Of a DNA stretch of 34,104 bases, positions 9,942 to 12,971 are shown one piece after another; within the stretch, counting starts at the first letter, position 1; each line of letters starts with the position of its first letter. The notes beneath the pieces were generated by a model. It saw only the letters and a program-made list of their open reading frames with translations, was not told where the DNA came from and made no database searches. This stretch comes from Chloroflexota bacterium (lineage in GTDB: Bacteria; Chloroflexota; UBA6077; JACCZL01): the NCBI GenBank assembly GCA_020850535.1, contig JADZEM010000092.1, forward strand, positions 1-34,104, read 5' to 3'. Position numbers and translations under genes: made by a program.

Positions 9942-10400
9942 CGGGCTTCGCCTCAGCGCAGCGTGGCGGTCCGGCCCCGTTCGCGTGCAGGGAACGCACT
10001 GCCCACCACAGGGAACGACTGAGCGGCGCGGCGAGCGCGCGATTCCCCTTCGCGCTTCGCGGTGCTACGGGCCGAGTACGTCCGCAACGACCCGTCTGAG
10101 GCGGGCCACGCCGCGCGCCACCCGGTCGTCGGTAAAGGCCCTCACCCCCCAACCCCCTCTCCCTGTGCGCGGGCGAGGGGGAGACACACGAGGCTGTCGT
10201 TGCTCCCCCTCGCCCGCGCACAGGGAGAGGGGGTTGGGGGGTGAGGGCCTTTGCCACAGGAAATCATCAATCTTCATCAACCCCCGACTGCCCGCCTCAC
10301 CACGGTCTGGGAACGCCAACGAACGCGCGATCGCCCTGCGTCACTGCCCGGGTCTCATGCGCCGTCCGGCAGCGCGTGGTATCGTCCCGCGGGAGGCCGG
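9942..10400. other. Divergent intergenic region holding a large palindrome
   Basis: This 459-bp gap separates the minus-strand FG-GAP gene from the plus-strand MFS gene, so it should hold both promoters. Its main content is the palindrome at 10134-10252. A further in-frame extension of the MFS frame back to 10251 is rejected because the GTG at 10401 has a good ribosome binding site. No other gene is supported. Confidence 0.6.
10134..10252. repeat. 119-bp palindromic element (50-bp arms)
   Basis: The arms 10134-10183 and 10203-10252 are 50-bp complements (AAAGGCCCTCACCCCCCAAC at the outer end) around a 19-nt loop. Translated, it gives the TPQPPLPVRGRG-type peptide that often appears in spurious annotations, a sign of a widespread dispersed palindrome. 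It shares its C-rich outer arm and GCGCGGG/GCACGCGGG centre with the in-gene palindrome at 6307-6378, suggesting one family. Confidence 0.9.
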
Positions 10401-11672
10401 GTGACGGAGCAGGCGAACCCGCGCGAGCGGTACTGGCGTCGCAACCTGATCGCGCTGTGCGTGGCGCAGATCGTGACCCAGATCGCGTTCAACTTCGCGG
10501 AACCGTTCGCCCCGCTGTTCCTGCTGACGATGAACGTCGGCGGTCCGGCCCAGGCCGCGCAGTGGGCGGGCCTCTCCAACGCGGCCTCGGCGTTCGTGAT
10601 GGCGTTCACCCAGCCGCTCTGGGGCATCGTCGCGGACCGCTGGGGCCATCGCCCGATGGTCGTCCGGGCGATGGTCGGCGGCGGCCTGATGGTGCTGCTC
10701 CAGGGCTTCTCGACCGGGCCGGAGATGTTCGTCGGGCTGCGGATGCTCCAGGGGACCGTCGTCGGGAGCGTCCAGGCAGCAAACGCGCTGATCGCCACGT
10801 CAGCCCCTCGGCAGCGCCTGGGGCTGGCGCTCGGGATCATGCAGGTGGCGTTGCTGACCGGGCAGGCGCTGGGTCCGCTGTTCGGCGGGTTCGTGGCGGA
10901 CCACTTCGGGTACCGGTTCTCCTACCTCGCGTCGGGCGTGACGCTCGGGTTCGCCGGGTTGCTGGTGCTGGCGTTCTGCCGCGAGGAACGACCCCAGCAG
11001 CGGCCCGGCATCGCGCGCACCGGCACGCTCGCCGCGAGCCGCGAGCTGCTGGCGGTGCGCGCCTTCTACATCGCCATCGTGACGATCATGCTGGTGGACC
11101 TGGGCCGCAGCACCGTCAGCCCGATCCTGAGCCTGTACATCGCCAGCTTCAGCGCCAACGCGAACGCGGCAGACGTAGGCCTCGTGATCACGGCAGGCGG
11201 CCTGACCAGCGCCGTCGCAGCCCTCGCCACCGGCCACCTCAGCGACCGCTTCGGGCCGCGCGCGGTGCTGCTGGTCTGCCTGGCCGGCTCGGCGTTGACC
11301 TACGTTCCGCAGGCCTACGTCCATGACTTCTGGCACCTGCTGGCGCTGCGGGTGGCGCTGGGCGGCTTCCTGGGCGGGATGGCCCCCGCCGCCAACTCGC
11401 TGATCGCGACGCTGGTGCCGCCGGAGCGGCGTGGGTCGGCATTCGGGTGGACGGCGAGCGCCAGCGGCTTCGCCCAGGGGATCGGCCCGATCCTCGGCGC
11501 GTCGGTGGCGACGGGGTACGGGCTGGCGTCGGTTTTCCTGGTGACCGGCGCGTTCTATGCGGTCGCGTTCGTGTGGGCGCTGGTGGGGATGCGCCCGCGC
11601 ACGGCCGCCGTGCAGCCAGTGCCGGTGTCGCCCACCAGTCAGATTCAGAAGCGGCCACAGAGCAACGGATGA
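10401..11672 (+). CDS. MFS transporter, drug-efflux-like
   Basis: This 423-residue protein has twelve predicted helices in two halves. The loop-2/3 signature appears in both halves: GIVADRWGHRPMVV in the first and GHLSDRFGPRAVLL in the second, as in DHA1-type proton antiporters (MdtG-like). Start GTG 10401 follows GGGAGG at 10391-10396 with five bases between, which is why the longer open frame to 10251 is not used. The substrate cannot be assigned. It precedes the OPRTase-like double protein by 66 bp on the same strand. A TACAAT at 11682-11687 in that gap could give the downstream gene its own promoter, so co-transcription is uncertain. Confidence 0.85.
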   Translation: MTEQANPRERYWRRNLIALCVAQIVTQIAFNFAEPFAPLFLLTMNVGGPAQAAQWAGLSNAASAFVMAFTQPLWGIVADRWGHRPMVVRAMVGGGLMVLLQGFSTGPEMFVGLRMLQGTVVGSVQAANALIATSAPRQRLGLALGIMQVALLTGQALGPLFGGFVADHFGYRFSYLASGVTLGFAGLLVLAFCREERPQQRPGIARTGTLAASRELLAVRAFYIAIVTIMLVDLGRSTVSPILSLYIASFSANANAADVGLVITAGGLTSAVAALATGHLSDRFGPRAVLLVCLAGSALTYVPQAYVHDFWHLLALRVALGGFLGGMAPAANSLIATLVPPERRGSAFGWTASASGFAQGIGPILGASVATGYGLASVFLVTGAFYAVAFVWALVGMRPRTAAVQPVPVSPTSQIQKRPQSNG

Positions 11673-11738: not shown

Positions 11739-12971
11739 ATGACCCAGCCACCTGACCTCGCGCGCGTCCTCGTCGAGGCCGGCGCGGCAACTGCCACCAG
11801 CGATGGGCCGTCGGGGCTGACGCTCGACGTGACGGCGCTGCTGTCGTACCCGTCGCGCCGCGATCTCGTGGTCGAGGCCGTCGTGGGCTGGCTGCGGGCC
11901 GCCGCGCCGGACGCCGACCTGATCGTCTGCCCCAACATCCAGTCGCTGCCGCTGGCCACGCTCGCGGCCTCGGCGCTGGGCTTGCCGATGGCCTACCTCC
12001 GGCCCCGGCCGAAGGAGCATGGGCGTCGGCGTCAGGTGGAGGGCGTCCTGCCAGAGGGGGCGCGCACCGTCCTGCTCTACGACGAGCTGACGAATGAGAC
12101 GCCCGTGGCCGAGGCTCAGGAGATCGTCGAGGCGCACGGCGGCACGGTTCGGCGCGTGGCCGGGTTGCTCGGCGATGCCACGACCGCCGACGCCACGCTG
12201 ACGACCCGGGCGGCCGTGCGCGAAGGCATGCTGACCGCGCGCGGCGGTCCTGTGGGAGACGAGCCGCCGCCGGCGCTGCCGCTGCCATCCGAACAGCGGC
12301 GTCATCAGATCCGGGAGCGCGTCGCCGAGATTCTGCTCGCGGCTGGCGCGGTCAGCATCAACTCGCGTCAACCGTTCCGGTACGCCTCCGGCCTGCTCAG
12401 CCCGATCTACACCGACAATCGACTGCTGATCTCCCACCCCGCGCTCTGGGGCGAGGTGATCGCCGGGTACGCCGATGCGCTGGCCGTTGTGGCGGCGCGG
12501 CAGCGGGTCGATGTGCTGGCCGGCGCGGCGACCGCCGGCGTGCCGCACGCCGTGTGCGTGGCCCAGGCCACAAACTACCCGCTGACGTTCGTGGATCTGG
12601 GTGCGCCCAACGAGGCCGAGGACCGTTCGGGGCGCGCCTACGGTCGGCTGCGCTCTGGCGACCACGTCGTCATGATCGAGGATCTGGTGACCACCGGGAA
12701 GTCGGTGTTTGAGTCGGTGGCGGCCCTGCGCGAGCGCGGCGCGTCCGTAGGCTGGTGCCTCGCCATCCTCGCCTACAATCCGGCCGGCATCGGCGAGGTG
12801 TTGGCGGCGCAGGGGCTGGGGTTCACGGCGCTCTCGGACATCACCACGCTGCTGGATGTCGGCGTGCGGGGCGGTCAGCTCAGCGAGGCAGACCGTGACG
12901 CCGTGCTCCAGTGGCTGGACGACCCGAAGGCCTGGAGCGCCGCCGCCGAGGCCCGGATCGCCAGCGCCTGA
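11739..12971 (+). CDS. Tandem double orotate-phosphoribosyltransferase-like protein
   Basis: This 410-residue protein is twice the normal OPRTase length and has two matching halves. Residues ~185-370 form an OPRTase-like domain with SINSRQPFRYASGLLSPIY and the PRPP signature VVMIEDLVTTGKS (310-322), but no catalytic loop: the region reads DLGAPNEAEDRSGRAYG. Residues ~5-145 repeat the fold in the same order (LVEAGAATATSD, LLSYPSRRD, LIVCPNIQS). They carry the OPRTase loop RPRPKEHG (88-95, with Arg88, Lys92, His94), while the PRPP signature has decayed to VLLYDELTNETP (111-122). OPRTase makes OMP from orotate and PRPP in pyrimidine synthesis, and its loop works across the dimer. Here one chain may supply both roles. 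No other pyr gene is nearby, so another base substrate is possible. RBS GAGGAG 11728-11733. Confidence 0.85.
   Translation: MTQPPDLARVLVEAGAATATSDGPSGLTLDVTALLSYPSRRDLVVEAVVGWLRAAAPDADLIVCPNIQSLPLATLAASALGLPMAYLRPRPKEHGRRRQVEGVLPEGARTVLLYDELTNETPVAEAQEIVEAHGGTVRRVAGLLGDATTADATLTTRAAVREGMLTARGGPVGDEPPPALPLPSEQRRHQIRERVAEILLAAGAVSINSRQPFRYASGLLSPIYTDNRLLISHPALWGEVIAGYADALAVVAARQRVDVLAGAATAGVPHAVCVAQATNYPLTFVDLGAPNEAEDRSGRAYGRLRSGDHVVMIEDLVTTGKSVFESVAALRERGASVGWCLAILAYNPAGIGEVLAAQGLGFTALSDITTLLDVGVRGGQLSEADRDAVLQWLDDPKAWSAAAEARIASA

Follow-up and report, generated by a model that had tools for sequence, protein, structure and literature searches.

The window, a stretch of 34,104 nucleotides from a Chloroflexota bacterium (contig JADZEM010000092.1), contains a gene for a tandem orotate phosphoribosyltransferase (OPRTase) at positions 11739..12971 on the + strand. 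It encodes 410 aa plus a stop codon, and the Shine-Dalgarno-like sequence GAGGAG is located immediately 5' of its ATG. An MFS transporter gene (10251-11672) on the same strand ends 66 bases upstream and may be co-transcribed with the tandem gene. The translated string ALTPQPPLPVRGRGG was found on both strands at about 9990-10310, suggesting a pair of short repeats between genes, one inverted relative to the other. Between 13347 and 19759, also on the + strand, a response regulator, an AcrB-type efflux pump and a GAF-histidine kinase-receiver-LuxR hybrid follow in a row.

The protein consists of an N-terminal OPRTase-like domain (about residues 1-165, 11739..12233, + strand), delimited by TIGR00336, an N-domain profile and the AF2 model, and a C-terminal OPRTase domain (residues 187-405, 12297..12953, +), delimited by NF001729 and by VIA alignment to 4ohc. 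The linker between them (about residues 162-186, 12222..12296, +) has low AF2 confidence (pLDDT ~55-78). In the NCBIfam scan NF001729 matched residues 187-404 at 5.6e-53, with a score of 179.7 against a cut-off of 245. A whole-genome profile search with TIGR00336 hit the halves separately (C-half 1.5e-22, N-half 4.5e-13); the score for the whole protein of 129.7 bits (cut-off 106.8) is the sum of these two stretches. The only Pfam domain above its cut-off was Pribosyltran. Compared directly by BLASTP, the N-half and the C-half were only weakly similar (25% identity, E 0.008), and the preliminary description of this DNA had stated that the two can be aligned. This was borne out by the separate TIGR00336 matches and by a profile of the tandem N-domains, which matched ordinary OPRTases with a probability of 100% (E 2e-60, 207 columns), so that both halves are OPRTase domains. 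The N-terminus of the protein aligns with the first helix of OPRTase.

AF2, run with 29 sequences, gave a confident two-domain model of the window protein (pLDDT 89.5, pTM 0.90), in which the secondary structure of the N-domain repeats the core of the C-domain. In VIA-align the window C-domain (184-405) matched 4ohc with Z 22.8 and rmsd 2.4 over 220 residues. The related tandem of Candidatus Methanoperedens (L081) was modeled at pLDDT 93.1 and pTM 0.79; its C-domain matched 4rv4 with Z 30.8, and its N-domain matched 1lh0 with Z 22.1 and rmsd 2.3 over 191 residues. The type I PRT fold with the OPRTase hood was thus found in the window C-domain itself, and the fold of the N-domain is taken from this relative.

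The two domains differ in the motifs they hold. In the N-domain the catalytic loop YLRPRPKEHGRRRQVEG (residues 86-102, 11994..12044, +) is intact, with R88, K92 and H94, and is well predicted by AF2 (block 91-100, 83). By motif comparison the PRPP motif of this domain, VLLYDELTNETPV (residues 111-123, 12069..12107, +), is degenerate: relative to the normal form xxxEDLxSTGGSx the phosphate-loop acidic residue, the Gly and the Ser are all replaced. The hood motif is gone as well, and judged from the sequence this loss argues against an orotate-like ligand having been kept there. The C-domain holds an intact hood SGLLSPIYTDNR (residues 217-228, 12387..12422, +; motif comparison) and an intact PRPP motif VMIEDLVTTGKSV (residues 311-323, 12669..12707, +) with E314 and D315. 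Its loop region FVDLGAPNEAEDRSGRAYG (residues 284-302, 12588..12644, +) is degenerate and contains no K or H; the loop Arg, Lys and His are all missing, and AF2 confidence is low (block 291-300, 60). Neither domain therefore has both the PRPP motif and the K..HG loop; there is one of them per domain, exactly the split that the preliminary description had read from the two halves.

Tandem OPRTases were searched for in 29 genomes of the same class and in a 400-genome sample of the phylum, and were found only in the window genome and in two further members of the class, G026 and G020. The former encodes a full-length tandem with 33% identity to the window protein; in the latter the tandem is split over contig ends. 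One C-domain segment of G020 ends two contigs (L041, end of contig 112; L042, start of contig 91). The two differ upstream of this segment, one being a tandem and the other not, and a recombinase-like ORF adjoins L042, which suggests either an additional copy fused in another way or an assembly repeat. Scanning the contigs of the genome collection with a single sequence gave no match; scanning the collection with a two-row alignment led to archaeal tandems in Candidatus Methanoperedens (L081), Thermoplasmata (L082), Aenigmatarchaeota (L083) and Nanohalarchaeota (L084). OPRTase has been described as a core protein of the Borg elements linked to Methanoperedens (PMC11208441), the only paper in the open-access literature found to link Methanoperedens to OPRTase. 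Later searches added L176 from the phylum of L083, and L190 and L191 from that of L084, both of the latter cut or broken close to contig ends. No tandem was found in the viral contigs searched, and the plasmid matches listed were only as long as a single domain. Profile searching thus found the two-domain order in class mates and in archaea with the same split of motifs; since at least eight further tandems, complete or in fragments, share it, this split is more than chance.

How strictly the split is kept was assessed on 9 tandem N-domains, 7 tandem C-domains and 69 single-domain OPRTases, the tandem proteins being related and hence not independent trials. In the N-domains the loop Arg and Lys were present in 9/9 and the His in 8/9; the single exception has Tyr, a residue that occupies this position in 13/69 single-domain OPRTases. 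The PRPP motif of the N-domains had lost the Ser in 9/9 and the Gly in 8/9. Its first acidic residue was also lost, with the motif of G026 so changed that the column is doubtful. The C-domains showed the reverse picture: the E, D, T, G and S of the PRPP motif were kept in 7/7, the loop Arg was lost in 7/7 and the Lys in 6/7. With windows ranked by conservation, the loop (17 residues) was first of 196 windows in the N-domains and 188th of 196 in the C-domains, and the PRPP window ranked 78/200 in the N-domains and 19/200 in the C-domains; in the single-domain OPRTases (n = 69) the loop ranked 33 and the PRPP motif 15. Of the 11 columns that are invariant in the N-domains, the loop contains five. 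The kept residues are fixed at an overall identity of ~30-40%, and the lost positions hold differing replacements, as would be expected under relaxed constraint.

The split is incomplete in L176, which has an altered N-domain motif (MKDIISTGDIL) and a C-domain loop that still reads VEKEHG, retaining K and H with the Arg gone. In the other archaeal tandems the C-loop Lys is lost and the N-domain hood mostly kept; the hood of the N-domain is lost in the proteins of the window genome, G026 and, as judged from the fragment, G020. A dead site cannot be concluded from an odd PRPP motif by itself, since L174 and L175 (genomes G541 and G594, from the phylum of Methanoperedens), which are single-domain and apparently the sole PyrE, carry phosphate loops of the form EDLIFDSSS and EDLIFDSRS, respectively, instead of EDLxSTGGS; both keep the catalytic loop. 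The phosphate loops of L187-L189 contain TDGGS or TDGNS.

In a tree with all rows the tandem N-domains formed one group (98/94 for the split from the rest), as did the tandem C-domains (86/87). When some long branches were removed, the position of the window N-domain floated; the C-domains of the window protein, L082 and G026 were the stable part of the link between bacteria and archaea. These trees favor a single fusion, with later transfer between archaea and this class of bacteria; it is favored rather than established because the window N-domain floats once the long branches are dropped. L176 looks like a candidate intermediate, and the series from L176 through the other archaeal forms to the window form reads as a progressive complementary loss, with the order deduced from comparison of present-day proteins. 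We consider it probable that the tandems make up a natural family of OPRTases with a single site, which arose when a gene fusion locked the homodimer in place and the halves afterwards gave up each other's task, and which occurs in graded forms in archaea and in one bacterial class.

In the OPRTase homodimer each subunit's loop folds over the active site of its partner (PMC10087573, PMC5430920), to which the title of entry 1oro also points. N:N or C:C pairs of the window protein would leave no complete site, and the motif pattern therefore needs N:C pairing. Our main reading, to which we assign a probability of about 0.83, is that the tandem is the OPRTase of UMP synthesis, a covalent pseudo-dimer with one composite active site. 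The two domains of one chain would pair like the subunits of a normal OPRTase homodimer, and the N-domain loop (R88, K92, H94) would extend across into the C-domain site, where PRPP and orotate would bind; the reciprocal site, made of the N-domain PRPP site and the C-domain loop, would be dead. The preliminary description had proposed such a pseudo-heterodimer with one live and one dead site, the latter of which may have become regulatory. The pseudo-heterodimer is strongly supported by the complementary losses of the relatives, and also by the two-domain AF2 model and by the lack of another pyrE-like gene in the searched genome; the N:C pairing, the loop reaching the C-site and orotate as the substrate are what we infer from them. 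The same complementary motifs would be required if the N-domain of one chain paired with the C-domain of another, so that each dimer of chains had two composite sites; with its poor order, the linker would allow such pairing in trans. However, the pTM of 0.90 of the single-chain model, as indirect evidence, suggests a defined arrangement inside one chain; pairing in cis is therefore favored on the model as the most likely form, and we regard pairing in trans as unlikely.

The composite site could also be dispensed with if the C-domain needed no loop to be active and the N-domain served only as a scaffold or a regulatory part. Every substrate-binding motif is indeed present in the C-domain. A scaffold, however, needs no loop, and no part of the N-domains is as conserved as the loop, which has nearly half of their invariant columns; moreover, acetylation of the loop Lys by itself lowers the kcat of the E. 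coli OPRTase 150-300 fold (PMC10087573). An active C-domain on its own thus seems improbable.

None of the other window ORFs scanned was recognised as a pyrimidine gene, and the preliminary description had taken this as a hint that the enzyme uses a base other than orotate. Such an enzyme, or a PRPP-binding regulator, would account for these neighbors, and regulators with a PRT fold are known, among them PurR and GfcR. The gene order in the Aenigmatarchaeota genome of L083, however, is pyrC, tandem, pyrF, prs. In a second archaeon (G874) pyrF lies directly upstream of the tandem, ~10 bases away and in the same orientation; the pyrF of G948 lies near the tandem on the opposite strand. In the window genome pyrR-pyrB-pyrC-carA-carB are found on contig 116 and pyrF, a gene of its own, is on contig 143; the window has no pyrimidine neighbors because the pyr operon is elsewhere in the genome. 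A search with OPRTase models found no second pyrE-like gene in this assembly, a fragmented MAG of 96% completeness and 4.6% contamination, from which, being fragmented, a second pyrE could be missing; the tandem is the only PyrE-like gene seen. The other hits of these models, when read, were PyrR, Apt and ComF, not PyrE; the last two were named from their sequences. With pyrB, pyrC, carAB and pyrF in the genome and no other pyrE-like gene found, orotate is the most likely base of the window enzyme. The idea of a different base is contradicted by the pyrC, pyrF and prs genes beside the relatives and by a pathway that has no other PyrE. As the OPRTase hood of the C-domain is conserved and Pfam and NCBIfam scans of the whole protein found no helix-turn-helix or other DNA-binding domain, we give a regulator or an other-base enzyme even less credit than an active C-domain on its own.

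No second clear OPRTase was found in G401, G402, G403, G945 and G948 either. In G026 a canonical pyrE is present, and in G400 there is in addition a GfcR-like protein. Besides its canonical pyrE and its tandem, G026 holds a third OPRTase-like gene on contig 31 (L046/L049, L167), encoding a 265-aa PRT protein whose nearest model among the OPRTase models of NCBIfam is PRK13809 (112 bits, under the cut-off).

Least probable of all is a decaying gene or a contaminant contig without function in this genome, as might be read from the low similarity to the relatives, the lost N-domain hood and the contamination of the MAG, because the frame is open, the key residues are conserved at ~30-38% overall identity and two further genomes of the class carry related tandems.

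OPRTase is a classic example of an active site that spans a dimer interface. If the composite-site reading is true, OPRTase catalysis is possible without two communicating or alternating sites, and a natural enzyme with one site per chain would directly test the need for cooperating or alternating OPRTase sites. The tandem also lets loop and site be mutated independently within one polypeptide, and the tandems together offer a graded series from a duplicated homodimer to an obligate pseudo-heterodimer. For annotation, a PyrE with a seemingly broken PRPP motif or an absent loop can be the half-site of a working enzyme.

No description of a tandem or pseudo-dimeric OPRTase was found in the open-access literature, and the window protein can be set beside several known systems. 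The OPRTase-like regulators (GfcR and others, PRK02277) have the PRT fold in common with the tandem. They carry a DNA-binding domain at the N-terminus, as do PurR-type regulators, whereas none was found in the tandem. The fused UMP synthases (PyrF-PyrE, PRK05500, and the UMPS of animals and Leishmania) also place OPRTase in a two-domain chain, but there the partner is OMP decarboxylase, a domain that Pfam did not find in the window protein, and in the tandem it is a second OPRTase. The homodimeric PyrE enzymes 3m3h/4rv4, 2aee, 4ohc and 1lh0, from Bacillus anthracis, Streptococcus pyogenes, Burkholderia cenocepacia and Salmonella typhimurium, respectively, share the fold, the hood, the PRPP motif and the loop elements with the tandem; they have identical chains and two identical complete sites, whereas the tandem has two unlike domains and would have one site. 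Subunit complementation in the Salmonella OPRTase was the subject of work by Ozturk and colleagues in 1995, whose title is listed in PMC5171910; in that work, combining subunits mutated in the loop with subunits mutated in the PRPP site reportedly gave heterodimers with one site restored. The tandem would be the natural equivalent of such a mixed mutant heterodimer, with the difference that those were engineered point mutants on separate chains and the tandem is an evolved fusion.
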